From a virus: a stretch of 59,191 bases of DNA. The stretch covers positions 1-59,191 of IMG/VR virus record IMGVR_UViG_3300034026_000014; one strand, 5' to 3'. Shown here in pieces: positions 9,847-49,453 of this stretch; the first letter of the stretch is position 1; each line of letters opens with the position of its first letter. The notes under the pieces were generated by a model. The model was given only the letters and a program-made list of their open reading frames with translations. It ran no database searches and was not told the DNA's origin. The position numbers and the translations under genes were made by a program.

Positions 9847-11127
9847 GTGAGAAAGGGTAAACACAATAGTATTCCGGGGGGCGGTCGGGGCGGCCCTAAA
9901 TCAGCCGCGGCGCTCAAATTAGCGCCCGCGGCCCCGCCCGCGGCCGCCCCCGGGCTCCTGCCGGAATTCGCCCCGCAAAAAGTAGCCCTTTTTCCGCCCT
10001 CGGCGCTCGGCAATTCCGCGCGCCTTTTCCTCTCAGGATTGTCCGCCTCGGCCCGGCGCTCGACGGCCGCGCGCCTCACAAAATTCACCTCGTTCTTCGG
10101 GCACACGGTGGACTCCTTCCCCTGGGCCGAGCTCAGCCCGGCCCACGTGCTCGCGGCCCGCGGGCTGCTGATAGAGACCGGGGCGGCGCCCCCGTCGGTC
10201 AACCTGCTTCTCTCACACCTGCGGGGCGTGGCGCGCACGCAGCGCCGCGTCCGGCCCGACCTGATGTCGGCCGAGACCTGCGCCGCCATCTGTGAGGTGG
10301 AGGGCGTGCGGGGGAAGTCGGCGCCGGCGGGCCGGGCCCTCCGCGAGGAGGAGATCGCGGAGCTCTCCCGCGTCTGCGCGCGCGACCGCAGCCCCGCGGG
10401 CGCGCGCGACCTGGCGCTGCTGTCTCTCCTCTATTACGTCGGCCTGCGGCGTGACGAGGTCTGCCGGCTGGAGCCCGACGACTGGCGCCAGCGAGACAAC
10501 CGCCTCCGCGTCATGGGTAAAGGCGCCAAGGAGGAGTTCGTCTACGTGGAGGCGAAGCAGGCGCGCCTGGCGCTCGGGCGATGGCTGAGGCGGCGGGGTC
10601 GGCGTCCGGGCTCGCTCTTCTGCTCGGTGTGGCGCGGCGGCCGCATCCGGGACGGCGCCGGCGCCGTCCGAAAGCTCTCGGGCGATGCCGTCTACAAACT
10701 CGTCGAGCGCCGCGCTCGTGAGGCGGGGCTGCGTCCGTGCACGCCGCACGACCTGCGCCGCTCGGCCGTCACGCACCTGCTGGAGCGCGGCGCCGACGCG
10801 CTGAAGGTGCAGGCGTTCGCCCGCCACGAGCAGCTCTCGACGACGACCCGCTACGACCGGCGGCGCGAGGAGGCCAAGCGCGAGGCCGCCCGCCGGCTCG
10901 CCGAACTCAAGCGCGTCCCGCCGGCGCCGCTCAAGCCCAGGCCGCGACGCGCGCGCCGAAAGGGTAAGAAGGGCCGCGGCGGGCGGCCGCGGCTCGCCCC
11001 GCTGGAGGCGCGGCCGCGCGCGGAGCTGCTGGCGCTCGCCCTCGCGCACGGGGCCGCGGCCCCGGAACGTGCGACGCGGGCGGAACTGGCCGCGGCGATC
11101 AGGGCGGCAGTCGGGGGCGGGGATTGA
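9847..11127 (+). CDS. Tyrosine recombinase (phage integrase) with SAP/HeH-like tail
   Basis: 426 residues, GTG start at 9847. The SAM-like core-binding domain spans about 55-140. The catalytic domain shows Arg in GLRRDEV (about 201), HDLR (H301, R304), H327 in ARHEQLS, and nucleophile Y336 nine residues later, a complete R-H-R-H-Y set. Beyond the catalytic domain an unusual basic extension ends in a helix-extension-helix (RAELLALALAHGAA...TRAELAAAIRAA), like the SAP/HeH or Rho-N fold, probably extra DNA contact. The stop codon lies inside a 24-bp sequence repeated exactly at 28593, so that repeat is a candidate att core. Confidence 0.9.
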   Translation: MRKGKHNSIPGGGRGGPKSAAALKLAPAAPPAAAPGLLPEFAPQKVALFPPSALGNSARLFLSGLSASARRSTAARLTKFTSFFGHTVDSFPWAELSPAHVLAARGLLIETGAAPPSVNLLLSHLRGVARTQRRVRPDLMSAETCAAICEVEGVRGKSAPAGRALREEEIAELSRVCARDRSPAGARDLALLSLLYYVGLRRDEVCRLEPDDWRQRDNRLRVMGKGAKEEFVYVEAKQARLALGRWLRRRGRRPGSLFCSVWRGGRIRDGAGAVRKLSGDAVYKLVERRAREAGLRPCTPHDLRRSAVTHLLERGADALKVQAFARHEQLSTTTRYDRRREEAKREAARRLAELKRVPPAPLKPRPRRARRKGKKGRGGRPRLAPLEARPRAELLALALAHGAAAPERATRAELAAAIRAAVGGGD

Positions 11128-11774: not shown

Positions 11775-11987
11775 ATGGCGGGGATGCGGGATATACGCGC
11801 GCTGAAGGGGATGTGTGCCCGGTGCGGCAAGCGTCCACCTGTTGACGGTCTGCGCCACTGTCAGCCGTGCCTTGATTATCTCAGGGCGCAGGGCCAAGCG
11901 TGGAGGGAGCGGCAGCGTGCTGAAAGGAGCGAATCATGCAGGAGGGCAATACATTCAGGCTGCGCGGCGCTACCCACACCATCGTAA
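11775..11987 (+). CDS. Zinc-ribbon small protein, paralogue A
   Basis: About 71 residues. CARCGKRPPVDGLRHCQPCLDYLRAQ gives four zinc-ligand cysteines, followed by a basic helix (AWRERQRAE). A close paralogue (CRACLDYLRAQSQAWRERQR) occurs at 12810-13193; the two share strong DNA identity over about 50 bp. The 3' end overlaps the next gene. Start uncertain (TTG 11766 or ATG 11775). Confidence 0.45.
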   Translation: MAGMRDIRALKGMCARCGKRPPVDGLRHCQPCLDYLRAQGQAWRERQRAERSESCRRAIHSGCAALPTPS

Positions 11988-12817: not shown

Positions 12818-13193
12818 CAAAAACGGGTACCGCAGGCGTAGGGCTAAAGGTCTGTGCGTCGGCGGAAATTGCAAGCAACCGGCGCGGCCGGGGCGCGTCC
12901 TCTGCGACTCGTGCGCGGAAGACGAATCGCTCGCGCACAAGCGCGCGAGGTTAGAGCGCGCGGAGAGTAATAGTTGCGCGCGATGCGGCGGGCGTCCCAT
13001 CTGCCGCGAGCGGCGTTTCTCGACTAGCCGCCGCTTTCCGGCTCGCCACTGTCGGGCCTGTCTGGATTATCTCAGGGCGCAGAGTCAGGCGTGGAGAGAA
13101 CGGCAGCGGAACTTGGGGGCTACCGGCGCGGGGCGCTTCCTCCCCGGCCTAAAGGCCGAGGTCTCCGCGCCGGTAAAGGGAGGTTTGGGATGA
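12810..13193 (+). CDS. Double zinc-ribbon protein, paralogue B, tail altered by hairpin repeat
   Basis: 127 residues, GTG start. There are two cysteine clusters, an N-terminal CVGGNC...CDSC and a second CARCGG...CRACLDYLRAQ that is paralogous to 11775-11987. The paralogy ends at RERQR; the following residues (GRFLPGLKAEVSAP) are encoded by the hairpin element 13123-13173, so an insertion seems to have supplied a new C-terminus. Confidence 0.5.
   Translation: MPSKNGYRRRRAKGLCVGGNCKQPARPGRVLCDSCAEDESLAHKRARLERAESNSCARCGGRPICRERRFSTSRRFPARHCRACLDYLRAQSQAWRERQRNLGATGAGRFLPGLKAEVSAPVKGGLG
13123..13173. repeat. IS200/IS605-like hairpin repeat, copy B
   Basis: Outer arms CCGGCGCGG (13123-13131) and CCGCGCCGG (13165-13173) enclose an inner stem GGCCT-AA-AGGCC. 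Flanks GGGCGCTTCCTC and GTCTCCGCGCCG match copy A. It lies inside the 3' end of the 12810 gene. Confidence 0.5.
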
Positions 13194-14283: not shown

Positions 14284-15873
14284 TTATGCAAGAAGTGAGT
14301 TTGCTGTGTCCGCGAGCAGTTGCGCACGCTCCTTGATGAAATCCCCGTACTTCACCAAAAGGCCCCCCTTTGGGATTAAGGCTGAGCGAAGTATGTCATC
14401 AACGCTTGCGGGAGGCATCATCTTCACGTAATCGGAGGGCGCCTTGTCTTGGATACTTCGATTGTCTTTCTGAGAAAGGAAGGCGAAATTCGCAAGCATA
14501 AATTGCTCGGCTTTGTCCGTAACCCCTTCCTTCGTTGCTAAATAGTTTTTCGGGAAGACGTGATGAAACTCGGTTCGATTACACGTCATGAGAACCTCAT
14601 CAAGGTCGACGTCGGCCGCTGAAAGGAATGATTTTGGTTTCGCCTGAGCCAAGAGCAGGATAAACACCTTAGTATTCACAGAGGTCAGCGCGAATACGTT
14701 GTCGGTAAAGTATTCTGGCGTCACTGTGAAATGACGCTTCTCAAGCTCTGTTGTGTTGCCGGCAAGTAGTTGCAGGATCGCTGCCATATCCTGTGCGATA
14801 GCGTTATCAACGCTGTTCGAGTATCGCCGCGAGAAGCTGCTATGCCAGAACCAATGCCGAAGGGCCGCGCGCTGCTTTGCGTCTGGGTGGAACCCCGCCG
14901 CCTTATCCGTTGCAAAGCATCGAGATAGCGGGATAATCATTGACTTATACGGAAGGATTTTAAGCGACGCCACGCCACAGTCCCGACGTAAGAACTCGAT
15001 AGCACCCAAGAGCCCGCGCCGAAAGACGGGGAAAGAATCGCGCACTTCCGAGCCCTTCAGGTCAACAATTGCGCGGGCTGAGGCATCGTTTCTTACAACA
15101 GCCGCACAGCACTTGAGTAGCAAGTCGGGGTCATCACGCAGGTCGTTGAAGCCTACCTCATCTAGCTCAGTGGCGAGCTCATCAAATTTCGTTCTGAGGT
15201 CGAAGTCGCCGCTCCACGTCCAAGCAGAGAGGAGTTGATAGGTATCTAACGGCACACCGCCCCGATTGATGCGCTCAAAAATGATCGCGATTTTCGAGTG
15301 CTCCTCCGTCTCGACGGTTTCGACAGGAATTACCGCCTCCTTGAACAGCGCTTGCAACTGATCAATTGCCCTCAATTGATCTTCGTCCTTAACTGTCCGC
15401 GTAAATTTGCCGAACTCGGTGACGTCGAAAAGTATTCTGAGCGGGACATGGTTTGGTTTTACGTCGGCGGGTTCGAGGGCAACGAACTGTGAGTCCTGCG
15501 CGCTGGCAGACGCCGAAAGGTCAAAGTAGATGTTAACCCATTTGACATGAGTCGCCGGATTCTGTTTTAGGTCTATCTGAAATGTAGAGAAGATCGAGGT
15601 TAGACGCTGCTGGCCGTCCAAGACGTAATCAATCGGGTACTCTTTCTTGGGCTCCGGCAGCGTAAAAGGACCAAGATCACGATCATAAGATAACTTTTCT
15701 TTGGTTCGCCAGAAAAGAACAGTCCCTATCGGATAGCCTTTGAAGATACTATCCATGAGGAATTGAACGCGGTCTGGTTCCCAAACGAACTCGCGTTGGA
15801 AAGCGGGGATACGGATTTCACCATCCGTAATTCTTTGTAGCAACTGCCGAATCGTGATAGTTGCGATTGCCAT
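14284..15873 (-). CDS. DUF262/HNH (GmrSD-like) protein, candidate anti-phage nuclease
   Basis: 529 residues. The N-terminal DUF262 (ParB/Srx-like) domain shows IPAFQREFVWEPDRVQFLMD and the signature DGQQR at 86-90. Near the C-terminus HHVFPKN (about 437) followed by an N-containing stretch is a DUF1524-type HNH motif. DUF262 plus DUF1524 is the architecture of fused GmrSD type IV restriction enzymes, which use nucleotides to cut modified DNA, and of related defence proteins. The gene stands alone in a low-GC insert next to an integrase remnant, consistent with horizontally acquired defence. Specificity cannot be told from sequence. Confidence 0.75.
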   Translation of the reverse strand: MAIATITIRQLLQRITDGEIRIPAFQREFVWEPDRVQFLMDSIFKGYPIGTVLFWRTKEKLSYDRDLGPFTLPEPKKEYPIDYVLDGQQRLTSIFSTFQIDLKQNPATHVKWVNIYFDLSASASAQDSQFVALEPADVKPNHVPLRILFDVTEFGKFTRTVKDEDQLRAIDQLQALFKEAVIPVETVETEEHSKIAIIFERINRGGVPLDTYQLLSAWTWSGDFDLRTKFDELATELDEVGFNDLRDDPDLLLKCCAAVVRNDASARAIVDLKGSEVRDSFPVFRRGLLGAIEFLRRDCGVASLKILPYKSMIIPLSRCFATDKAAGFHPDAKQRAALRHWFWHSSFSRRYSNSVDNAIAQDMAAILQLLAGNTTELEKRHFTVTPEYFTDNVFALTSVNTKVFILLLAQAKPKSFLSAADVDLDEVLMTCNRTEFHHVFPKNYLATKEGVTDKAEQFMLANFAFLSQKDNRSIQDKAPSDYVKMMPPASVDDILRSALIPKGGLLVKYGDFIKERAQLLADTANSLLA

Positions 15874-16295: not shown

Positions 16296-16496
16296 ATGAA
16301 CGAGCGACAGCAGGCCAACATCGCCTATTACCTTGAGCGCCTCGAATACTGGAAAGGGCGTAGGCCTGTCCAGTCGACCGCGAGGCTGCTCGCCGCTAGG
16401 GACGCCGACGAGGCGCATCCGCTACGGACGGAGAAGGAGGCAACGGAAGTCGTAGAGTACCTGCCGCGGCTGGAGCGAGAGCGGACGGCCACATAG
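16296..16496 (+). CDS. Small helical protein, paralogue of 22548-22799
   Basis: 66 residues: MNERQQANIAYYLERLEYW, a basic middle, then ARDADEAHPLR. The copy at 22548 has MNERQQAHINYFLERVAYW and ARDADQAHPLR. The two copies bracket the methyltransferase-HEPN-nuclease module. Function unknown; the charged helical form may act as a protein adaptor. Confidence 0.5.
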   Translation: MNERQQANIAYYLERLEYWKGRRPVQSTARLLAARDADEAHPLRTEKEATEVVEYLPRLERERTAT

Positions 16497-16803: not shown

Positions 16804-17637
16804 TCAACGTCGAGACGGTCGAGGTAATCGGGAGAAACTGTGAGTTGCAGGGCGACACGGGGGAGATGTCAGCAGAACGTCCGCGAAATTCGTCGCGACC
16901 CGCAACGCCTGGTTCCGGCCCAGAATGAGAACGTTCTGGGTGCTCAAGGTGTTCTTGCCCACCGCGCCCATCTCCGCTAAGTACTCCCGGGCACGTAATA
17001 GGTCATTCATCCTGACCCAGTCCCAGGCCACGACGACGCCCACCCTGCCCAAGGTGGCGGCGTTAGTCATACTCCCAATCAAGTACTTGAGTTTCGCGTT
17101 GGCCCTCTCGATCTCCACCGCCATAAAGCAGCGAGCGTTCAGGTTATGCGAGCACAGGCTTTCCAAGTCGGGCGACGAGAAACTGCTTCCGAAACTGCGC
17201 AGGTTTCTCTGGAAGGCCCGCAGCATCGCCTCGAGCATTTCCGCATGCCTGTCGGCCATCCGGTCGTACGCGGTCACGTAGCCCCGGAGGGTGGCGAAGG
17301 GGCCTATCGCGAGATCGACCTCCGGCGCGTACATGATCCGGCGCCGAGTCCCGGGAGCCCATATCTCATCCCTGCGCATCGCCCCCCACTCTACGACGAC
17401 CTGGCGACGTCCCACGAAAATACGGCGGAGGGCAGTCGCGAGCTGTGCGGTGTAGGCCGGCACAGGCGACGAGCAAGCACCAGCAAACTGGTTCATGAGG
17501 GCGCGCGCGCCCTTCTCCTGCATTAGCATATAGGGGTGTGAGGTGAACTGCCCCCGGCGGAGCGGGGCTTGGCAGCGCATGAACTCCTCCGCCGTCGGCG
17601 CCGTGAGCTCAGGCTTTCTTTCCTTCCTCTTTCCCAC
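16804..17637 (-). CDS. PD-(D/E)XK-like restriction nuclease candidate
   Basis: 277 residues, GTG start. Two blocks fit a PD-(D/E)XK core: PEVDLAIGPF (105-114) as the catalytic Asp strand, and FMAVEIERANAKLKYLIGS (171-189) as the E-x-E/K strand and following helix, with NAATLGRVGVVVAW as the next helix-strand. Pro-Glu-Val-Asp followed by Val-Glu-Ile-Glu, where family members often have ExK, suggests a variant active site. It is the last gene of the operon regulator, DNA methyltransferase, HEPN, nuclease, 39 bp after HEPN. Likely role: the cutting subunit of a restriction-like system. This is a reading from motifs only. Confidence 0.5.
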   Translation of the reverse strand: MGKRKERKPELTAPTAEEFMRCQAPLRRGQFTSHPYMLMQEKGARALMNQFAGACSSPVPAYTAQLATALRRIFVGRRQVVVEWGAMRRDEIWAPGTRRRIMYAPEVDLAIGPFATLRGYVTAYDRMADRHAEMLEAMLRAFQRNLRSFGSSFSSPDLESLCSHNLNARCFMAVEIERANAKLKYLIGSMTNAATLGRVGVVVAWDWVRMNDLLRAREYLAEMGAVGKNTLSTQNVLILGRNQALRVATNFADVLLTSPPCRPATHSFSRLPRPSRR

Positions 17638-17676
17638 TTTTAGATCCTTCTAATAGACTTTAAGTGATAGAACCTA

Positions 17677-18180
17677 TTATCGAATCTCCTTCCAAATCTC
17701 AAGCGCGAATTTCCTGACTTCACGATAAGCTGCAAGGGCGTCCGACGTTGTTACCCTATTTTGGGGTAGGAGGTTCAATGTTTCGTTGTAGTACAAGGCA
17801 TCATTCCTGGCGACAACAGTTATGAAACGGCTTAACGTAGAGTGAATCGAGAAGTAGGGTTTAGTTCTGTCCGCCAGATCATTGAATAGTAAGATTTTGG
17901 CCTTATGAGAGGAGAGTTCAGTAATTTGTCTGGTTGGTGACGGGTAGTAATGAACTTTTTTACCGCTCGCGTTTATATAATGAGCCCTTCCCTCGGGCGG
18001 TACAGGATAGCCGCGGGCGGCGATGAGAGCACTCACGGCGCATTCATAAGCGTGATAGCAGTGGAAGAAGGCACCGTCGGGGTAAGAAGTCAGTAGAAGC
18101 GAAGCCATGCGCAGGTGACGCAAGGCTAGGCCGTACCACTTTCGCTCTGGGTGAAGGGGGCCTGCGGGAGGTGTCGTCAT
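17677..18180 (-). CDS. HEPN-domain protein of the methyltransferase operon
   Basis: 167 residues. WYGLALRHLRMASLLLTSYPDGAFFHCYHAYECAVSALIAARG is the first helix pair of a HEPN fold (usual pattern: A..LL...Y..A.FHAYQA.E.ALKALL). HEPN RNases carry Rx4-6H; here the equivalent RNDALYY ends in tyrosine, so catalysis is doubtful and a binding or neutraliser role is possible. ATG 18180 overlaps the methyltransferase stop (ATGA), so the two are translationally coupled. An ATG at 18255 is less likely. Confidence 0.6.
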   Translation of the reverse strand: MTTPPAGPLHPERKWYGLALRHLRMASLLLTSYPDGAFFHCYHAYECAVSALIAARGYPVPPEGRAHYINASGKKVHYYPSPTRQITELSSHKAKILLFNDLADRTKPYFSIHSTLSRFITVVARNDALYYNETLNLLPQNRVTTSDALAAYREVRKFALEIWKEIR

Positions 18181-20531
18181 ATACGGTCTAACAACAGAAC
18201 GCCAAGGTCCTCCTCCCGCTGGCTTTTTTTTGCGGAGGCTACTGCCCGCCGCCATTCTGAGGGTGTGAGCAGAGTGAACTGGAGAAGTATCTCTTCGTCT
18301 GCCAGCTGACTGAAGACCTTCTCGGCGATCTCCCGGTAGAGTGCGAAAGAGCGTTCCTCCGAACGCAGGACGATCTGTATTACTACTTCCTCGAACGGCA
18401 GGTTACGTAAATCTAGCCCGTGCCGCGCCCACTCTCCGACGGCGAGAACCTTTTCTATCTTATCCTCAAAAAAATCGGTCAGACTCTGTAGGGCGGTTTT
18501 GAGCACCTCCAGAAGCCCGCCTGACTGCCTCTCAAACTCATCATTCGCGGCGTTAACCTGGCGCAGACGATCAAGGAGGAGGGTAATCCCCTCGTAATCA
18601 GGAAGCAGGAGACCGCTCTTCGCGGCCTCCTTATCCTCTACCTTGTCGCGGATCTCGTCAGCCCTTGAGCGCTGGAAGAAGAGTCTAAGCTGCTTGTAGA
18701 GAGTTACCTTCTTAGGCTCGAATCGCCAGCGGCGCGGCGCCACCACCGTCCCGACGTGACGGAGGAGCGCCGACACGTCGACCGCCCCCATCTGCACGTC
18801 CGGCGCTTCAGAAAACCTTGTCAGGAGGTGCCTGTGGACATCGCCCTCCTTCGCCTCACCCTGCTCTCTCAAAAACTCGAAGACGTAATAACGGGCGCGG
18901 TCGATGGTCGGCAAACTGGGATCGAGCGTGCTCCCGGGATTCATGACCCAGGAGCTGGCGTCTTTATCGAGCTGCCAGATAGCGAAGCGCGGCGTTTCCA
19001 AAAGTTTTTGAATATCTTCTGTTAACTCCGCGGGGTTCTCGCGGTAATTCCTGAAGGCCCGGCTGTCGAGAATCTGCTGGATCACCCCGGAAACAATTAT
19101 TTTGATGTCCGCCCCCAGATAAGAGACTATCAGGCGCTCGATTTCCTTCTCAACGTAGTTGGGTTGAGTCGGCATGTCGAGCACGACGGCACGCGGGTAG
19201 AGGCGGTCGAATTTACGCTGGGACATCTTGCGGAAGTTAAGATACATGTCCCCGCTCGGGTTGATATTCGGATTCTCCCGCTGCCTGGTCGAAGTGATTT
19301 TAAGGTCCTGCCAGACGGCGTTGACATAGCGCAGCCCGCTCCGCTCACAGGCCGCCACGATGCTCTGCCACAGGCTCAAGTCGCGATGTTTGTAGACGAG
19401 GGTGAACCAGCGGTCGGGTTTTAGCGCCCGCGCAATGGCTTCCATCGACGCGGCGAACTCCTGCTCAAACTGCTGCCGTGTTTTAGACTCCGACCCGCCG
19501 ATCAGCAACTCGTCGCGCCGGGTCTCCGTAGTAATGTCAAGCCTCAGCCACGCGGCCCACAGCGCCGATAAATCAACGAAGTGGATGCGGTTGGAGTACG
19601 GCGGGTCGGTGAAGCAGTAATCTACAGTCCCCTCCCCCGTGACCTCGTGGATGCGTCTTGCCGGCACGTCCGCGAATGTGATGTTTCGTTCACTGTAACG
19701 CTCACCTATTAGCTTATTGGTCTCCTGTTTCGCCTCCAACACGTTCTTAAACATGCGGTCGAAGGTCGGCCAAACCAGCAGCTCATAAAATAGGGCCTCG
19801 GAAGCTGGTGAGTAACTGAACCGGCGGAAGACGCCTGCGTCACCCCGGTAAGGGGAGCGGCGCTTACCCTTATCGAAGGGGAGTATGTACGTCCTGTTGC
19901 AGTAACGGACCGTGTTCGCCAGCGCCATCATGAGCAGTTCGCGCAGCAGATGATCTTTCGTCTGCTCGATTGCTCCCCGAAGAATGCTCAGGCCCGCCAG
20001 CTGCCGCGGTGTATGAAGCTCATTAATCGTCTCGGCGCCGCCGGCACCACGCACGGACTGTGGGATTGGATCGCGCGGGTAGTCCAGCCTGAGGAGCAGG
20101 CCGGCCACCTCCGCGTCCGACATGTGATCCAAAGCTTCGATGGGTGCCAGGGCGGCGGCACGCACCTCATCGAAAGAGGCGCGCAAGGCGGCTACATCGA
20201 CCGGCGCCACGGCGGTCATGCGCGTTATGAACCTTGCAAACGGATTTATGTCGCTCGCGACCGTACGCCTACCGAGTACGAGCGCCTCGACGGGCGTCAC
20301 GCCGCTGCCCGAGAAGGGGTCGCACACGAGTTCGCCCGGGGAGGTGTAATGCTTGATGTACTCTTGTATGACGGGCCACGGCTTCTTAGCAAAGAACGGG
20401 GAAAATCCGAAGTGCCTTGAGGCGCCCTTGATGCGGGACCTGTAAGGGACGCTGTAGTCTATCGGCGTGTCGGTGACGTGAGGACGGTCGCCGGGCGAGG
20501 ATGCGTCTAAGTTGCGAGCGAGATTCGGCAT
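18177..20531 (-). CDS. Large DNA methyltransferase (DPFSGSG...DPPYSN) with C-terminal extension
   Basis: 784 residues. SAM-binding motif I VCDPFSGSG at 70-77 with acidic D94, then catalytic motif IV DPPYSN at 309-314: an amino-methylating (m6A/m4C) enzyme with motif I before IV, the order seen in COG1743/DUF1156-type methylases. The first 50 residues (FGFSPFFAKKPW) are typical of that group. Residues about 440-784 form a long non-catalytic helical region with no recognised fold, perhaps target recognition or partner docking. It is preceded three bases away by a MerR-like regulator and followed by coupled HEPN and nuclease genes. Probable modification subunit protecting self DNA. Confidence 0.75.
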   Translation of the reverse strand: MPNLARNLDASSPGDRPHVTDTPIDYSVPYRSRIKGASRHFGFSPFFAKKPWPVIQEYIKHYTSPGELVCDPFSGSGVTPVEALVLGRRTVASDINPFARFITRMTAVAPVDVAALRASFDEVRAAALAPIEALDHMSDAEVAGLLLRLDYPRDPIPQSVRGAGGAETINELHTPRQLAGLSILRGAIEQTKDHLLRELLMMALANTVRYCNRTYILPFDKGKRRSPYRGDAGVFRRFSYSPASEALFYELLVWPTFDRMFKNVLEAKQETNKLIGERYSERNITFADVPARRIHEVTGEGTVDYCFTDPPYSNRIHFVDLSALWAAWLRLDITTETRRDELLIGGSESKTRQQFEQEFAASMEAIARALKPDRWFTLVYKHRDLSLWQSIVAACERSGLRYVNAVWQDLKITSTRQRENPNINPSGDMYLNFRKMSQRKFDRLYPRAVVLDMPTQPNYVEKEIERLIVSYLGADIKIIVSGVIQQILDSRAFRNYRENPAELTEDIQKLLETPRFAIWQLDKDASSWVMNPGSTLDPSLPTIDRARYYVFEFLREQGEAKEGDVHRHLLTRFSEAPDVQMGAVDVSALLRHVGTVVAPRRWRFEPKKVTLYKQLRLFFQRSRADEIRDKVEDKEAAKSGLLLPDYEGITLLLDRLRQVNAANDEFERQSGGLLEVLKTALQSLTDFFEDKIEKVLAVGEWARHGLDLRNLPFEEVVIQIVLRSEERSFALYREIAEKVFSQLADEEILLQFTLLTPSEWRRAVASAKKSQREEDLGVLLLDRI

Positions 20532-20534
20532 GCT

Positions 20535-21017
20535 TTAGGCCGCCTTTCGGAGCTTCTCGACCTGCTCATGAATCGGGACTAAAAGCAGCATCTGCCCGTT
20601 GTGCTTGTGGATGTCAACCACCTCATTATTACTATTCGCATAGTAGACCGAGTATCCGTCGGTCAGGAGGTAGGTTTCGGGGGCGTCCAACCGGATCTTG
20701 TGCTCCTCCAGATTACGCGCTACCTTCTGCACCTGGCTGGGTGTGAAACCCGACCGCCGCAGGTGACACACGATTAAGGCTTTGATCACGTCCACGGCAG
20801 AGTAGAAGGAGGACGGCTTACCGGTCGGCGCATCCGAACGCCGCAACGTGGGGTTAAGGAGGCCGGTTTTATCCCAGTACGAGGCTTGCCTTCTGGTCAT
20901 ACCAGTCAGCCTAAGAAGCTCCGGCACAGTATATAGCCGCTTGCCGAATGGCTTCTTCTTCGGCAATGTAGTGTTCAGCCTGCTGAGACCTCTCGACGCA
21001 TCGCCTTTCTTTCTCAT
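20535..21017 (-). CDS. MerR-like transcription regulator of the methyltransferase operon
   Basis: About 160 residues. LYTVPELLRLTGMTRRQASYWDKTGLL is a MerR-type winged HTH, and SAVDVIKALIVCHLRRSGFTPSQVQKV is the second wing/helix. The C-terminal domain (LLTDGYSVYYANSNNEVVDI) is small and beta-rich, without the cysteines of metal sensors. ATG 21017 is preferred because a 30-bp perfect palindrome lies just upstream. As first gene of the operon it probably autoregulates it, a common way to delay nuclease expression in restriction systems. Confidence 0.65.
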   Translation of the reverse strand: MRKKGDASRGLSRLNTTLPKKKPFGKRLYTVPELLRLTGMTRRQASYWDKTGLLNPTLRRSDAPTGKPSSFYSAVDVIKALIVCHLRRSGFTPSQVQKVARNLEEHKIRLDAPETYLLTDGYSVYYANSNNEVVDIHKHNGQMLLLVPIHEQVEKLRKAA

Positions 21018-21027
21018 AGCACTTATC

Positions 21028-21057
21028 CATGAACAAATGTGCTTACATTTGTTCATG
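21028..21057. promoter_or_regulatory. 30-bp perfect palindrome, operator of the methyltransferase operon
   Basis: CATGAACAAATGT (21028-21040) and ACATTTGTTCATG (21045-21057) are perfect 13-bp arms around GCTT. It lies 11 bases upstream of the regulator's start and downstream of the promoter at 21080-21108, where binding would block elongation; the transcript would also form a strong leader hairpin. Confidence 0.65.
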
Positions 21058-21079
21058 GTAACGAACTTAGACCGTACTA

Positions 21080-21108
21080 GCAATATTTTTCTTTTCCAAA
21101 CCTCTCAA
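21080..21108 (-). promoter_or_regulatory. Promoter of the regulator-methyltransferase operon
   Basis: Minus-strand TTGAGA (21103-21108), 17-bp spacer, TATTGC (21080-21085). Predicted start near 21073 puts the palindrome at about +16 to +45. Divergent from the gene at 21155. Confidence 0.5.
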
Positions 21109-21883: not shown

Positions 21884-22085
21884 AATCCAGTACATCTACG
21901 AGGTCGGCTACATCACTCTCCGGAGGGTGCGCGGCGACTACTGGCCCGACAAGCTCGCCGACCGCGCGGCGCTGGTGGGCTTATGGGGCTGCGGCAGCTT
22001 CACCGAGGAGGAGTATGACCAAGTCCTGTTCGCCGCCGGCGCGCCGCCGTGGGGGCTCGGCCTGGCCGTGATAGAAGATGACTGA
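21870..22085 (+). CDS. Small hypothetical protein
   Basis: 71 residues, overlapping the preceding gene by 14 bases and the next by 8. Aromatic-rich (YIYEVGYITLRRVRGDYWP). No family recognised; typical of phage accessory operons. Confidence 0.4.
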   Translation: MSQAEIQYIYEVGYITLRRVRGDYWPDKLADRAALVGLWGCGSFTEEEYDQVLFAAGAPPWGLGLAVIEDD

Positions 22086-22551
22086 CAGGAGCAGGCTCGG
22101 CGAGAAATACGCCATCGTCCACACCTCGATTTACCGCGGCGTCCACTGGGACCGCCGCAAGGGCAGGTACCGCGCCGAGATTGAGGTGCGCACCAAACGA
22201 TATAAGCTCGGGTGGTGGAACGACGACCGCGACGCGGCGCTGGCCTACGACGTGGCCTGTGAGCGCCTGGGCGTCCCGGAGCGGCGCAACTTCGGCGCGC
22301 ACCCCGTCTACGACGAGCTGACGCTGCTGCGGTCGCGGATGGGCGTCTGCCCGACCTGCCGCGGGGCGTGCCAGACCGGGGGCGAATTCCACCCGCCGGG
22401 CGTGGCGGGCTCTCACGGCAGGTTCGTGCGGCTGGGGCGGTGGCGCGAGTGTGAGACCTGCGCCGGCGCGGGATACCTCGTGGACGGGAGGTCAGTCCCC
22501 TGTTCACCGAACCAGGATGCGCTATCCTTAGGAGTCGGGGGATGGGCATGA
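22078..22551 (+). CDS. AP2-domain protein with DnaJ-type zinc-finger tail
   Basis: 157 residues. Residues about 17-70 (SIYRGVHWDRRKGRYRAEI, then KLGWWNDDRDAALAYDVA) form an AP2/ERF DNA-binding domain with the YRGV and WxxxxxAA.AYD hallmarks. Bacterial and phage AP2 domains are usually fused to HNH homing endonucleases; here there is none. Instead the C-terminal half has CPTCRG and CETCAGAG, the CxxCxG repeats of DnaJ-like fingers. Probably a DNA-binding protein, possibly derived from a homing element. Confidence 0.7.
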   Translation: MTDRSRLGEKYAIVHTSIYRGVHWDRRKGRYRAEIEVRTKRYKLGWWNDDRDAALAYDVACERLGVPERRNFGAHPVYDELTLLRSRMGVCPTCRGACQTGGEFHPPGVAGSHGRFVRLGRWRECETCAGAGYLVDGRSVPCSPNQDALSLGVGGWA

Positions 22552-22799
22552 ACGAGAGGCAGCAGGCGCACATCAATTACTTCCTGGAGCGCGTCGCCTA
22601 CTGGCGGGGTCTGAAGCGCGACTACTGGGCGGCGCGAATGCTGGGGGCACGGGACGCCGACCAGGCGCACCCGCTGCGCAGTGAAGAGGAAGGCGCGGAG
22701 GTCTTCGAGTATCTCAGCCGGCTGGAGCGGGAGGAAGGCGTCGGGACCGCCGACCGCGACGGGCCTGCTCCTGCTGACGCTGTGCCGCCGCGGCCTTGA
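22548..22799 (+). CDS. Small helical protein, paralogue of 16296-16496
   Basis: 83 residues, ATG 22548 overlapping the AP2 gene's stop. Shares MNERQQ and the ARDADQAHPLR block with the copy 6 kb to the left. The 3' end overlaps the convergent gene 22714-22959 by 86 bases. Confidence 0.5.
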   Translation: MNERQQAHINYFLERVAYWRGLKRDYWAARMLGARDADQAHPLRSEEEGAEVFEYLSRLEREEGVGTADRDGPAPADAVPPRP

Positions 22800-34783: not shown

Positions 34784-35052
34784 GCGAACAGAAACACGCG
34801 CCGGAGTTCAGCGTCGCGGGCTGCGTCCCAGAGCCGGTCGCCGTCGAATTCGCCGACGGCGTCAGGCAGGTGCCCGGCGCCGTCGTCCGCGAGCTGGGCG
34901 GCGGCGAGGCCCTGAAGAAGATGTCGGCGCAGCTCGGCCGGCTCACGTACGCGGACTTCATGCGCGCCTACGGCGACGACCGGGCCGGCCGGGCAGTCTC
35001 CGCGGCGCTCAACTCAATGGTCGGTCAGCACTTAAGGATGTTCACGCGATGA
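34780..35052 (+). CDS. Small protein between terminase and portal
   Basis: 90 residues, ATGA overlap with terL and 4-base overlap with the portal gene. Ends in a helical segment (ALNSMVGQHLRMF). No family recognised; position suggests a head-related role. Confidence 0.45.
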   Translation: MSEQKHAPEFSVAGCVPEPVAVEFADGVRQVPGAVVRELGGGEALKKMSAQLGRLTYADFMRAYGDDRAGRAVSAALNSMVGQHLRMFTR

Positions 35053-37076
35053 GCATAGTGGGCAGGGTGATTACGGGAGCGCGGTCGCTCGCGGCGGGGG
35101 CGCTGGCCCTCACGGGCTGGCCGGGGGAAGAGAAGTCCCTCGACGACCAGATGATGGGCGGCGTGACGGCCAACCAGGGCGGCGCCGCGATGGTCGTGCT
35201 GCGGAACGCCCCCGCCGACTTGTCGCGCCTCTTCGCCAAGCGCAGGGTGCTGCTGCTCAGGCAGTACGCCGAGCACTCCGAGACCGTGCGCGCTGCCATC
35301 GACATCTACCGCGACCTGATCGAGCAGGCCGAGTGGCAGGTCACGCCCTACGACCGCACGCGCCCGATGGACGAGGGGGTCCGCGCCGAGATCGAGGAGC
35401 TGCTCTCTAGCCCGAACGGCTTCGAGCCCTACAGCACGACCAAGGCGAAGTGCCTCGTCGAGGACTTCCTCGTCGTCGGGCACGGCGGCGTCGAGCTGGG
35501 CATCCGCCGGGACACCACGCCCTGGGGACTCTTCCCCCTCGACGCCGAGCGCCTGGCCTTCGTGCCCGGCTGGGACGGCACCGACCCGACGCTCCCGCGC
35601 TACGCGGAGCTCGACTTCGACGGGCGGGTCCGCCGCTGGCTCCCCGACCAGATGTGCATGACGCTGGTCAACCGCCCCCGCTCCTACGACCCCCTCGGGC
35701 TCTCGCACGTCGAGGTCCTCGACACGGCCATCCGCGCGCTCCTCCAGGGCAGCGACCAGTTCCTCCAGCAGATGATAGACCGCACCCCGGGCGGCGCCCT
35801 CGACCTGGGCGAGGGGTACACCAAGGAGCAGCTCGACGCGTTCCGGCAGGAGATTCAGCAGATCAGGAATTTCTTCGCCGTCGTCTCGAGCGGCAAGGCC
35901 AAGTTCGTCCCCTTCAACGCCAGCGAGCGCGACCTGAGAGCGCTCGACAAGATGCTCTTCTTCAAGCGCATGGTGGCGGCCATCTTCCAGCTCCCGCTGG
36001 CCATGCTCGGCGAGCTGGTGGACTCCTCGCGCGCCAACACCGAGGCGCTGCTGGAGAACGCCGACCGCGGCCCGGGCGCGCTGCTGTGGCGCATCCGGGG
36101 TGCGGAGAACCGTCACCTGGTGCTGAGGTGGGGGCCGTACGCGAAACATAACTGCATGGTGGATTACCCCATCATGTCGCGGCGGGACGAGAAGCAGCAG
36201 GCGGAAATCTCTTCCACCCAGACGGGGAAGAGCGCCTGGGCCTCGACCAACGACGCGCGGCGCGCCTCCGGCCTCGAGCCCCTGGACCTCCCCATCGCCG
36301 ACGAGGTCCTCGTGCCGACGAAGGCGGGCCGCGTCCCGCTCGCCGCGTTGAACGCGCAGTATTTCGATGGCAAAAAGCTCAGGGAGCCGGCGGACGAGGC
36401 AGGCGGCGAAGGGGATGAAACGGGCGAGGCTGACGAGGACGACCGCGGGCCGGAGGGCAAGCGCCTGGCGGTGCGCGCCGGCCGGGCGAAGAACCTCAAG
36501 GCCCCGGTGCGCGTCGTCTCCGGCGGCGGGCGTTTGTTGCCGCGCGCGGGGCTCCCGCTCGAGCACGCCGTCGGGAAGTCCCTGCACAAGTATTCGACGA
36601 CGCAGGTTGACCTGCCCGAAGACGTCGCCGACGAGATCACGGCCTTCGGCGAGGACATCCCCGACGAGGACTTGGCCGACGGCGGCCGCGAAGGCTTCCC
36701 GCACGTCACGGTCAAGTACGGGCTGCACGCCGACGGGGCGGGCGAACTGAAGGAGCTGCTGAAGGGCGTCAAACCCTTCCAGATCACGATGGGGAAGACG
36801 GCCATCTTCGAATGCGAGGACTTCGACGTCGTCATGGTCGAGGTCAAGGGCGCCGCGCTCCGGAGGCTGAATAAGAAAATCGCCGGCGCGCTGGAGCACA
36901 CCGACACGCACCCCGAGTACAAGCCGCACGCGACCGTCGCCTACGTGAAATCCGGAAAAGGGGAGTTATACTCCGGAGACAATTTCCTCCAGGGGACAAA
37001 GGTGAAGGTAGAGGCCGTAACGTTCTGCAACAAAGCGGGGAAGAGGACGATCATTATGCTCGACGGAGGTGAGTAA
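35049..37076 (+). CDS. Portal protein fused to a 2H phosphoesterase domain
   Basis: 675 residues. Residues 1 to about 430 have portal features (ETVRAAIDIYRDLIEQAEW, LDTAIRALLQGSDQFLQQMIDRTPGG, AAIFQLPLAMLGE). The last about 150 residues carry the two HxT motifs of the 2H (2'-5' RNA ligase-like) superfamily: HVTVKYG (H552) and HATVAYV (H627). Fusions of portal-like proteins with 2H domains are related to Acb1, which cleaves the cyclic nucleotides used by CBASS. The portal part forms the DNA entry ring; the 2H part may be cleaved off, or display an anti-immunity enzyme. A basic, Gly-rich linker (about 470-500) separates them. Confidence 0.8.
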   Translation: MSIVGRVITGARSLAAGALALTGWPGEEKSLDDQMMGGVTANQGGAAMVVLRNAPADLSRLFAKRRVLLLRQYAEHSETVRAAIDIYRDLIEQAEWQVTPYDRTRPMDEGVRAEIEELLSSPNGFEPYSTTKAKCLVEDFLVVGHGGVELGIRRDTTPWGLFPLDAERLAFVPGWDGTDPTLPRYAELDFDGRVRRWLPDQMCMTLVNRPRSYDPLGLSHVEVLDTAIRALLQGSDQFLQQMIDRTPGGALDLGEGYTKEQLDAFRQEIQQIRNFFAVVSSGKAKFVPFNASERDLRALDKMLFFKRMVAAIFQLPLAMLGELVDSSRANTEALLENADRGPGALLWRIRGAENRHLVLRWGPYAKHNCMVDYPIMSRRDEKQQAEISSTQTGKSAWASTNDARRASGLEPLDLPIADEVLVPTKAGRVPLAALNAQYFDGKKLREPADEAGGEGDETGEADEDDRGPEGKRLAVRAGRAKNLKAPVRVVSGGGRLLPRAGLPLEHAVGKSLHKYSTTQVDLPEDVADEITAFGEDIPDEDLADGGREGFPHVTVKYGLHADGAGELKELLKGVKPFQITMGKTAIFECEDFDVVMVEVKGAALRRLNKKIAGALEHTDTHPEYKPHATVAYVKSGKGELYSGDNFLQGTKVKVEAVTFCNKAGKRTIIMLDGGE

Positions 37077-45823: not shown

Positions 45824-48800
45824 ATGGCGCTCGACCTGTTCAAGCTCTACGGCGAAGTGAGCATCACCGGCCTCGACTCGGCCGAGCGGGGACTCGTGCG
45901 CCTGGAGGGCAGGGCCAAGGGGACGGCCAAAGGCTTAGACCAGGCGGGCGGCTCCGCGCGCAGGCTGACGAAAGACCTCGCCGCCGCCGGGGCCCAAGGG
46001 TCCATCGTCGGCCGGGCGCTGGAAGACCGGCTGGGCGGCGTCGCCTCGCGCGTCCCGCTCATCGGTCAGCCGCTGGCAGAGGCGACGCGCGAGATGTTCA
46101 ACCTCGGCACGGCCTCCGAGAAACACCTGGGCGGCATCGTCAGGGACGCGGAGCGCGCGGCCCAGAAGCTCGCCCTCGCCCAGGCCCAGGCCGCCAAGGT
46201 CAGGGACACCCTCGCAACGCGCCGGTCTGATTTCGGGGAGAACCTGAAGATCAATTACGGGGGGAAGCTCGACCCCGACTTCCTCCTCCAGTTCAGGCAG
46301 GCCGAGGACGCCGCCCGCCGCCTCCAGCTGCTGACCGAGAAGGGCATTGACCCGTCCTTCATGACGAGGGTGGAGCGGTCGGCGTTCCAGTTCTCGAAGC
46401 TGGAGCGCGACGGCGTCAAGGCCGTCACCGCCGTCGAAGACAAAGTGGGTCAGGCGGCGACGGCCCTGGCCGGCTACGAGGCGGCGGCCGAAGGGGCGGC
46501 CGCCGGGACGGGCGCGCTGGCCGGCGCGAGCGCCGGCGTCGTGGTCGGCGTCGGGCTGGTGGCCGCCGCCGCCATCGCGTCCGGCGCGCTGGTCCTCAAG
46601 AGCGCCAAGGACTACAGCGATTACGCGGGCGCGATTAAAGACGTCGCCCAGGAGAGCGGTCTCGCCGCGCCGACGGTCTCCACCGTCGGCGCCTACGCGC
46701 GCCTCGCCGGCACCGAGGTCGGCCGGGCGGCCTCCGCCGTGGAGGTCTACTTCAAGAACATCTCCTCGGCGGCACACGGCAACCGGGAGATGTCGAAGAC
46801 TTTCGAGCGCTTCGGCATAGACGCGAAGAAGGCGCTCACTGACCCGGACCAGGCGGCGCGCGATCTGTTCGACCACCTGGCGAAAATCCGGAACCCGGCA
46901 GAGCGCCTCGAAGTCGCGTTCGGCCTCGCGGGTAAGAGCGGAAAGGTGCTCGCCAACATAGCCCAGGAGATGGGCGGGAGCTTCGCCGACGCCGAGCGCG
47001 CTGCGCACGAGTGGGGCGTCGTGCTCTCGGACGAGGACGTCGAGGCGGCCGACAAGTTCGGCGACGGCCTTGAGGTCCTGAAGATGAGGGCCGAGGGCGC
47101 CCTCTACCGCATCGGGAAAGTCGCCATCCCGGAGTTGCAGCACGACATCGAGAGCCTCTCGGCGACATTTATTTCGAACAGGGGTGTGGTCGAGGGGTGG
47201 GGCGTCGGGGTGGTGGACGTGATGCGCGGCGCCCGCCTGGCGGTCGAGTCGGACGTCGGCGCGATGATCGCCAAGGTCCTGTATTTCTCCAGCATCCTCG
47301 GACAACTCGGCCAGCTCAAGGCGGCGGCGCCAGAGTGGGCCTCCGAGGGGGGCATCGCCCTACTCAACCCCGCGTGGGCGCTCGCGCGCAACCTCGGGCG
47401 GGCCGGCGCAGCGGACCGCGCCCTCGATCAGGACTTGGCGAACGAGACCGCCCGCCTGCAATCAAAGAACTCCGGAGCGGTCGCGCCGCCGGCGGGCATC
47501 CCCCACGTCGGCGGCGGCGGGGGCGGCCGGAAAGGGGGCGGCGGCAAAAAGTCGAAAGACCTCACCTCCCTCTACGAGGCGCTGAGCGACGCCGAGGCGG
47601 GGCGCCTCATGGCGGGCCTCACGTCCGACGTGACGAAGCTCAAGGCCGGGCTCGACGCGCAGCAGTCGGTGCTGGACGCCGGCCTGCGCGCGCAAACCGT
47701 CAGCGTGCGCGACTACTGGGAGGAGCGCGAGCGCATCACCCTGGCCGGGCTCGACGCCGAGATCACCTTACTCCGCAGTCAGAAGCGCTCCGCGGCCGAA
47801 GGGTATCAAGAGAAGTTCGCGGCCATCGGCGCCGACAAGAAGCTCTCGGCCGAGGAGCGCACGCTGAAGCAGCAGCAGGAGTCGGCGCGCTGGGCGGAGA
47901 AGAACTACCAGCTCGAAGGGCAGATCGCCGAGGCGGTCGAGCGCCGCTCGGCGGCGATGAAGACCATCCCGCTCGAGGCGGCCGCGGCCGCGCGCGAACT
48001 CGAGAAGACGATGTCGGGCGTGCGGGCCGACTTCCTGGAGGCCGGCGGCGACACGGTCGGGGCCGCCTACGCGCGCATCGCCGACAAGTTCCGGGAGATG
48101 CACGAAGTGGCGCGCGCCAACGGCCAGCTCTTCCCCGACGCCGACAAGTGGGTCACGGCCCTGGAGCGCTCTGAGAAGCTGGCCGCCAACCTCGCCCGCC
48201 TGGGCGAGCGCGCCGACTTGGGGCGCGGCCACCTGAGCCTGGAGACCGCCCGCATCCAGGACAGGATTACCGACGGCGTCGTGAGCGAGCGCGAGGGGCG
48301 CCGGCAGATTTACGAGCTGGAGCTGAAGTACCGCGACTTGCTGCGCGGCGTTCTGGCCGAGTCCCTGGCGGTGGCGAAGGTCAAGGGGGACGAGAAGGCG
48401 ATCCTCTCCATCGAGGAGCAGATCCGTGAGACCGAACGCCTCGGGCACGTCATAGATTCCACCAAGGCGAAGGCCCGGGGCATCTTCGAGGGGGCCTTCT
48501 CACACGGACTGGATGAGTTAAAGGGCGGGCTCGGGCACGCCGCCGCGACATTCGGCATAGACCTCGTGGACGCCGTGAAGCGGGAGATGGACGCCCGGCT
48601 GACGAAGGTCATCAGCGAGGCGCTCTTCGGCAAGAACGATGAGTTCGGGTCGGATTCGGGGCTGATCGGGAAGGCGCTTGAAAAGATCGGGCTCGGCGGC
48701 ATCTTCGGCGGTAAGGGAAAAGGGAAGACCGAAGACCCGAGCGCGAAGGTCAGCGCGACGCTGGAGAAGACCGCGCAGGAGACGCAGGGCGCCTTCGAGC

Positions 48801-49453
48801 GCACGTCCGGCGACCAGATTTCAAACAGGGACTGGAACACCGACCGCATCCTCGACGCGCTGCGCCAGCTCGACGAGACGATGGAGAGCATGCGGCCGCA
48901 GCAGCAGGGCTTTTTGAGCGGGCTCGCCGGCGCCGCGCTGGGCGGCTTCGTCGGCAGCCTCGGCTCGGGACTGGCGTCGCGGGTCGGCGGCGGCCGCCGT
49001 GAGTCCACGCAGGGTTACGAGGTGGACGAGGACACGGGCACCTACACGCGCCCGCGGCGGGTGAATCCCCCCCCGGGCCACGCCCTGGGCGCGATGGTCT
49101 CGGCGACGGCCGGCGGCAAGCTGATCCGGGTCGCCGAGGGCGGCTACGACGAGCTGGTTTTGACCACGGACCCCCGCCACCGCGCGCGCAGCGAGGCGCT
49201 GCTGGCCTCCTACATGGCGAGGACGGGCATCATCCCGCACTTCGCCGCCGGCGGCTACGCCGGCGCCGGCGCGGGTTACGTCCCGCCTCCGGTACGCGTC
49301 GGTGACTCGCGCCGCCCGGGCGGCGGCGGGCGCGCCCCGGTCTACGTGGACGTCAGACTTAACCGCGACTCGCAGGGCCGAATAAGGTCGAAAGATCAAG
49401 TCCAGGTAGAGATATACCAGGGCTCGGCGGATAGCGCCCGGAGGAACGGGTAA
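45824..49453 (+). CDS. Tape measure protein
   Basis: 1209 residues, long and helical. A hydrophobic segment (about 228-255, GVVVGVGLVAAAAIASGALVL), a TMP-like core (KDVAQESGLAAPTVSTVGAY, KNISSAAHG) and long coiled coils (about 590-900) are visible. Near the end GGYDELVLTTDPRHRARSEALLASYMA is a common tape-measure C-terminal block. It sets tail length and is ejected first. A siphophage tail of about 180 nm would be expected from 0.15 nm per residue. Confidence 0.85.
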   Translation: MALDLFKLYGEVSITGLDSAERGLVRLEGRAKGTAKGLDQAGGSARRLTKDLAAAGAQGSIVGRALEDRLGGVASRVPLIGQPLAEATREMFNLGTASEKHLGGIVRDAERAAQKLALAQAQAAKVRDTLATRRSDFGENLKINYGGKLDPDFLLQFRQAEDAARRLQLLTEKGIDPSFMTRVERSAFQFSKLERDGVKAVTAVEDKVGQAATALAGYEAAAEGAAAGTGALAGASAGVVVGVGLVAAAAIASGALVLKSAKDYSDYAGAIKDVAQESGLAAPTVSTVGAYARLAGTEVGRAASAVEVYFKNISSAAHGNREMSKTFERFGIDAKKALTDPDQAARDLFDHLAKIRNPAERLEVAFGLAGKSGKVLANIAQEMGGSFADAERAAHEWGVVLSDEDVEAADKFGDGLEVLKMRAEGALYRIGKVAIPELQHDIESLSATFISNRGVVEGWGVGVVDVMRGARLAVESDVGAMIAKVLYFSSILGQLGQLKAAAPEWASEGGIALLNPAWALARNLGRAGAADRALDQDLANETARLQSKNSGAVAPPAGIPHVGGGGGGRKGGGGKKSKDLTSLYEALSDAEAGRLMAGLTSDVTKLKAGLDAQQSVLDAGLRAQTVSVRDYWEERERITLAGLDAEITLLRSQKRSAAEGYQEKFAAIGADKKLSAEERTLKQQQESARWAEKNYQLEGQIAEAVERRSAAMKTIPLEAAAAARELEKTMSGVRADFLEAGGDTVGAAYARIADKFREMHEVARANGQLFPDADKWVTALERSEKLAANLARLGERADLGRGHLSLETARIQDRITDGVVSEREGRRQIYELELKYRDLLRGVLAESLAVAKVKGDEKAILSIEEQIRETERLGHVIDSTKAKARGIFEGAFSHGLDELKGGLGHAAATFGIDLVDAVKREMDARLTKVISEALFGKNDEFGSDSGLIGKALEKIGLGGIFGGKGKGKTEDPSAKVSATLEKTAQETQGAFERTSGDQISNRDWNTDRILDALRQLDETMESMRPQQQGFLSGLAGAALGGFVGSLGSGLASRVGGGRRESTQGYEVDEDTGTYTRPRRVNPPPGHALGAMVSATAGGKLIRVAEGGYDELVLTTDPRHRARSEALLASYMARTGIIPHFAAGGYAGAGAGYVPPPVRVGDSRRPGGGGRAPVYVDVRLNRDSQGRIRSKDQVQVEIYQGSADSARRNG

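Follow-up and report, generated by a model that had tools for sequence, protein, structure and literature searches.

A MerR-type regulator, a single-chain DNA methyltransferase and a HEPN protein are encoded by what comparison of two copies indicates is a conserved three-gene unit, which in the window analysed here (the complete 59,191-base IMG/VR virus record IMGVR_UViG_3300034026_000014) appears as cargo of a probably temperate phage. In the window the unit is followed by a fourth gene, which had been taken as part of the same restriction-type operon and whose product, of 277 residues, had been proposed to be a nuclease. All four linked genes of the minus strand are borne out as open reading frames, and so is their tight spacing, with a 3-bp gap after the regulator, an ATGA overlap between the methyltransferase and HEPN genes and a 39-bp gap before the last gene.

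We scanned 84,980 species genomes with an alignment of the methyltransferase and found, among the matches listed, one close relative, on contig JAHFUG010000564.1 of a Blastocatellia MAG (locus L092). The contig carries the regulator, methyltransferase and HEPN genes in the order seen in the window and with the same ATGA overlap, and the proteins are 51%, 62% (over the full 784 residues) and 49% identical to their window counterparts, respectively. In all three genes, third codon positions are close to random between the two copies (identity of 0.30-0.35) while first and second positions keep an identity of 0.62-0.80, and the codon comparison therefore points to purifying selection on all three since a distant split. 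Downstream of the HEPN gene, L092 has a convergent reading frame whose translation, as we read it, resembles the tail of a DegT-type aminotransferase, and the 277-residue gene is absent both from this position and from the whole genome. The predicted linkage thus stands for regulator, methyltransferase and HEPN protein but not for the fourth gene, which we leave out of the core because it is missing from L092 and no relatives of it were found. The aminotransferase tail and the lack of any recognised phage gene on this 4-kb contig hint at a chromosomal location; a nuclease encoded farther downstream or upstream would lie outside the contig. Searches of viral contigs with the HEPN and methyltransferase sequences returned no further copy of the cassette, and L092 was the sole convincing match when 396 Acidobacteriota and 158 Blastocatellia genomes were searched with the HEPN protein. 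We did not count a weak HEPN match from a Blastocatellia genome (G1209:C49); it is located at the end of a contig, and the stretch that was read there contains no neighbouring methyltransferase.

The regulator gene (positions 20535 to 21017, minus strand, with a longer alternative extending to 21056) matches Pfam MerR_1 (E=2e-8), in keeping with its prediction as MerR-like, and gives a weak PADLOC match to mad1 (E=8.7e-6); the C-terminal part of the protein, YLLTDGYSVYYA...EVVDI, is conserved. The conserved start of the L092 regulator aligns with Met14 of the longer window form, and we favour 21017 as the likely start codon, which would therefore place an inverted repeat upstream of the coding frame, in the leader. 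This repeat, originally described as a perfect 30-bp palindrome, has two perfectly matching 14-bp arms separated by 4 bp (32 bp, positions 21027 to 21058) just upstream of the likely start, and it is a plausible candidate operator at which the regulator would act, probably keeping expression low and self-adjusted. No similar repeat was found upstream of the genes in L092. The claim of one promoter for the operon is not supported, with promoter-like sites at chance level (2 found versus 1.8 expected) and none upstream of the operon on its own strand.

The methyltransferase (784 residues, positions 18177 to 20531, minus strand) matches Pfam N6_N4_Mtase (E=4e-13) and the PADLOC MTase_II and PglXI profiles. 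The two motifs first noticed are where they were reported, DPFSGSG starting at residue 71 and DPPYSN at residue 309, and in the METHYLTRANSFERASE motif I stands ahead of motif IV by ∼230 residues, which we take to be the order of the alpha-class amino-methyltransferases. Both motifs are intact, as in the methyltransferase of a Type II restriction-modification system, and the enzyme would probably methylate host DNA as "self". While the core (residues 36 to 440) matches more than 100 open reading frames in the loci fetched, the C-terminal extension (residues 440 to 784, ∼345 residues) matches the L092 enzyme only in the same loci, with one weak match of residues 440 to 600 to L093 (E=0.004). 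An extension that occurs only with HEPN-linked enzymes (n=2) is suggested by these matches, as a lead and not as proof.

A tree of 38 relatives groups the enzymes of the window and L092 in a 10-member clade (support of 100/100) together with L093, L200 and six enzymes of Acidobacteriota type; outside the HEPN-linked pair, most members of this clade are fused to nucleases or putative nucleases of various kinds or lie next to them. L093 has a C-terminal fusion that matches Type II restriction endonuclease profiles (REase_II, E=1e-6), L200 and L201 have an N-terminal fusion resembling HSDR_N (with a sub-threshold Pfam match in L201 only), and the upstream adjacent gene of L096 encodes a VPVEIKR motif, with similar motifs in L094, L097, L202 and L203 and no Pfam match; L095 starts at the very edge of its contig and is uninformative. 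This varied nuclease company supports a restriction-type role for the operon of regulator, methyltransferase and HEPN protein, as had been proposed. More distant relatives on plasmids have an AAA ATPase and a DUF2357-PDDEXK_7 pair as neighbours, and other distant relatives lie amid ordinary chromosomal genes with no nuclease. We also observed a separate family of methyltransferase relatives of ∼840 to 880 residues on chromosomes of several phyla (L102, L107, L108, L112 and L113), located beside ordinary genes with no visible nuclease and, by reading, with a RadC-like neighbour in L107, L108 and L112.

The HEPN protein (167 residues, positions 17677 to 18180, minus strand) matches the Pfam HEPN profile below cutoff (E=0.011). 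Its AlphaFold model, built from two sequences, has a mean pLDDT of 69 and a pTM of 0.71, and the top six PDB matches to this model in Foldseek are all HEPN-T-type structures (3o10, 1ufb, 1wol and 2hsb) at a probability of 1.00, with a best E value of 1.6e-3 and none below 0.001. The four/five-helix HEPN fold is well supported by this model. As first reported, RNDALYY is found at residue 125 and no Rx4-6H motif is present anywhere in the protein; the R, D, L and YY of R-x-D-x-L-Y-Y, together with several histidines, are common to the window and L092 proteins. HEPN-T members without the usual histidine are known and may use another one, and HEPN proteins without Rx4-6H have proved toxic, while domains that lack the motif may also be non-catalytic (PMC3710099). 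The protein may cut or bind RNA.

We tentatively favour, as a reading that falls somewhat short of probable, a PrrC-like coupling between a HEPN effector and a modification enzyme carried by the prophage, with an optional extra effector. The MerR-regulated cargo would have as its core the methyltransferase translationally coupled to the HEPN-T protein. The methyltransferase would modify cellular and prophage DNA, and its C-terminal module, specific to the HEPN-linked clade, would bind and restrain the HEPN protein. An incoming phage that disables the methyltransferase or presents unmodified DNA would then release the HEPN protein, which once freed would block growth by RNA cutting or binding, as PrrC does beside PrrI, and the 277-residue protein would be the optional extra effector, perhaps a DNase of the window copy. 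The PrrC logic has been proposed for HEPN-restriction pairs (PMC3710099) and restated for BREX-related systems (PMC12839542). Against a guard reading of this kind, the canonical RNase motif is absent from the HEPN protein and the core is present in two copies among the matches listed.

An ordinary restriction-modification system, in which the 277-residue protein would be the endonuclease that cuts unmodified DNA and the HEPN protein a minor accessory, is a serious alternative that we nevertheless consider rather unlikely. The related methyltransferases come with a nuclease or putative nuclease (L093, L200/L201, L096, L094, L097, L202 and L203), and the gene in question (positions 16804 to 17637, minus strand) lies 39 bp downstream of the HEPN gene, and most of its length is coding. 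The PEVD and VEIE blocks on which its nuclease prediction rested are present, at residues 105 and 174, in an order that could suit a PD-(D/E)XK enzyme, but they are weak evidence alone, a loose PD-(D/E)XK-like pattern being found in 9.8% of shuffled versions of this protein. The gene is, however, absent from L092 and its genome, and no homology was detected between its product and either the nucleases that accompany the methyltransferase relatives (by hhalign) or any family. It gave no meaningful match in Pfam, PADLOC, NCBIfam or PHROGs and chance matches only in a sequence search of the PDB. No relatives were found in 396 Acidobacteriota, 399 Pseudomonadota, 246 Planctomycetota and 55 other genomes, in viral contigs searched with the peptide and two degenerate motif patterns, or by tblastn in plasmids and phages, and the weak matches that we inspected were chance alignments. 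The single-sequence AlphaFold model (mean pLDDT of 33.8) is not interpretable, and the identity of this orphan as a PD-(D/E)XK nuclease is unproven.

The C-terminus of the 277-residue protein also looks frameshifted. The last ∼20 codons of its reading frame score as strongly non-coding, and there the +1 frame takes over the coding signal and stays open to ∼16722; we therefore consider a frameshift likely, either real, with a truncated gene, or a sequence error from a mis-called base, near a C5 run at ∼16860 to 16866, and the natural C-terminus is perhaps at ∼16722. The conserved-looking residues of the protein are upstream of the frame change. The same shift could be read as the mark of degrading cargo, with the fourth gene a pseudogene and the locus no longer working, but this is improbable since the remaining three genes are all intact and constrained and a single-base sequence error at the C5 run explains the shift equally well.

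Removing the endonuclease altogether gives a second form of the guard, in which the methyltransferase itself would guard the HEPN protein through its dedicated C-terminal domain with no need for a restriction endonuclease, and loss or titration of the methyltransferase by a phage would free the HEPN toxin. We regard this form as unlikely, but if it were true, the Blastocatellia copy, with no nuclease directly downstream, would represent the minimal form of the system.

It is also conceivable, but quite unlikely, that no killing is involved, and that the methyltransferase shields phage DNA from host restriction with the HEPN protein as a non-catalytic partner or an RNA-binding regulator. Phages often carry solitary methyltransferases, many related methyltransferases with a long C-terminus lie beside chromosomal genes with no visible nuclease, and L092 has no nuclease directly downstream. 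The place of L092, with the aminotransferase tail hinting at a chromosome, and the nuclease linkage of the nearest methyltransferase relatives argue the other way. The missing Rx4-6H motif can be read in both directions, since such HEPN domains may be non-catalytic but motif-less HEPN proteins can still be toxic (PMC3710099).

Returning to the favoured reading of a methyltransferase coupled to a HEPN effector, we compared the operon with described systems. As claimed in the original prediction, no named system in PADLOC corresponds to the whole operon, and a non-exhaustive search of the open-access literature returned no description of a regulator-methyltransferase-HEPN operon. The word "undescribed" was nevertheless too strong, as HEPN proteins, HEPN-T included, were reported with restriction-modification operons by Anantharaman et al. 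2013 (PMC3710099), where the HEPN-T type (PF05168) is recorded as clustering with them. The HEPN fusions reported in that work are to nucleases and helicases and not to methylases, whereas in the window the HEPN gene overlaps the methyltransferase gene.

PrrC-PrrI resembles the window operon in placing a HEPN protein and a DNA methyltransferase in one operon and in its proposed logic of a guarded backup RNase, but PrrC has an ABC ATPase and stands with a full Type I hsdMSR, whereas the window operon has a single-chain methyltransferase, no ATPase and at most a putative restriction subunit. Instead of the HEPN-ABC ATPase fusion beside hsdMSR that marks PrrC-like systems, we found a single-domain HEPN protein of 167 residues and no hsd genes in the operon. 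By analogy, it is possible that the operon works like PrrC. The two-gene or fused restriction-modification systems of the same clade (L093, L094, L096, L097 and L200 to L203) share the homologous methyltransferase core (clade support of 100/100) but have unrelated nuclease modules and are without a HEPN gene, a MerR regulator or the C-terminal extension.

With a methyltransferase gene placed after that of a small HTH regulator, the operon recalls MADS, and there are weak matches to mad1 (E=9e-6) and mad2 (E=3e-7), but the HEPN and 277-residue proteins match no other PADLOC component and the mad2 score is far below those of the generic MTase_II profiles; with only these two weak matches among the operon proteins, membership in the mad1-mad8 operon was rejected. 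BREX was likewise rejected: the methyltransferase core is similar to PglXI (PADLOC, E=2e-27), but the operon proteins match no PglZ, BrxC or other BREX protein in Pfam or PADLOC. Tha of Staphylococcus aureus prophages is also a HEPN effector on a temperate phage, but it consists of one protein, in which RxxxxH is intact, senses tail proteins and has no methyltransferase (PMC11087260). No minimal nucleotidyltransferase, the adjacent partner in HEPN-MNT toxin-antitoxin pairs, is present in the operon.

HEPN proteins with restriction genes are therefore of an already known kind, and the window operon looks like a real but rare variant, set apart by a single-chain methyltransferase whose C-terminal half is private, a HEPN gene that overlaps the methyltransferase gene, and carriage by a temperate phage. 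The prediction that HEPN proteins serve as backup toxins of restriction systems is more than a decade old, but the physical link is, PrrC aside, mostly unknown. The locus offers a very small case, made up of a single regulator, a single HEPN protein and a single methyltransferase that has a private C-terminal domain, and direct restraint of a HEPN toxin by a modification enzyme is therefore directly testable.

The plus strand of the window encodes a large terminase, a portal, a tape measure and tail proteins. A tyrosine integrase (positions 9847 to 11127, plus strand; Pfam Phage_integrase, E=5.5e-27) makes the window phage probably temperate; the integrase has a counterpart of 61% identity in a related phage. 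The window phage infects bacteria, its host is probably Acidobacteriota-like, and it joins the carriers of HEPN-methyltransferase cargo. The nearest relative found is this related phage, IMGVR_UViG_3300045837_000211 (G001, 55.7 kb), whose terminase is 79% identical. Two blocks are colinear between the phages, one at 9.99 to 10.89 kb of the window and 50.88 to 49.98 kb of G001 and the other at 22.98 to 24.67 kb and 45.11 to 43.32 kb, respectively, and the distance separating these blocks is 12.1 kb in the window versus 4.9 kb in G001. The difference of ∼7 kb agrees with the stretch at 13.7 to 21.1 kb of the window, which holds a GmrSD-like gene and the operon and across which the G+C content drops from 62-70% to 49-59%. 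Because of the extra ∼7 kb, the lower G+C content and the lack of a methyltransferase match in G001, the segment is, on comparative grounds, inserted phage cargo beside the integrase. Its reading as host DNA flanking a prophage was ruled out, since genes homologous to those of G001 lie on both sides.

The GmrSD-type gene (positions 14284 to 15873, minus strand), which we do not count in the operon, encodes a single-chain protein (Pfam GmrSD_N, E=1e-31; PADLOC PDC-M55C, E=2e-59) with a DUF262 domain, an intact DGQQR and a C-terminal HHVFP HNH-like stretch. It is of the modification-dependent Type IV and shares the inserted segment with the methyltransferase operon; a modification-dependent nuclease in this place would have to spare the product of the methyltransferase.

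Two paralogous short phage genes flank the operon in the same orientation (positions 16296 to 16496 and 22542 to 22799, both plus strand), with 64.5% protein identity and 69% DNA identity to each other. Neither was found in G001, and they could have served as recombination sites for insertion of the operon. Adjoining the cargo segment, a small protein (positions 22078 to 22551, plus strand) contains a DNA-binding domain of AP2-like type (Pfam AP2, E=4e-5, sub-threshold), and just outside the segment there are a 65-bp direct repeat (positions 11853 to 11917 and 13044 to 13108, 85% identical) and further repeats within 12.3 to 13.2 kb. Elsewhere in the window, a portal-like protein (positions 35049 to 37076, plus strand) carries a C-terminal 2'-5' RNA ligase/LigT-like domain (Pfam, E=7e-11); such a fusion is uncommon and might represent a virion-delivered nucleotide-degrading activity. 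In G001 (L180/L181), the interval corresponding to the cargo segment holds a different gene (positions 46998 to 48887, minus strand), by reading a HerA/FtsK-type ATPase with the Walker A motif GKTGAGKSSALRH, and the interval may therefore be a variable cargo site.
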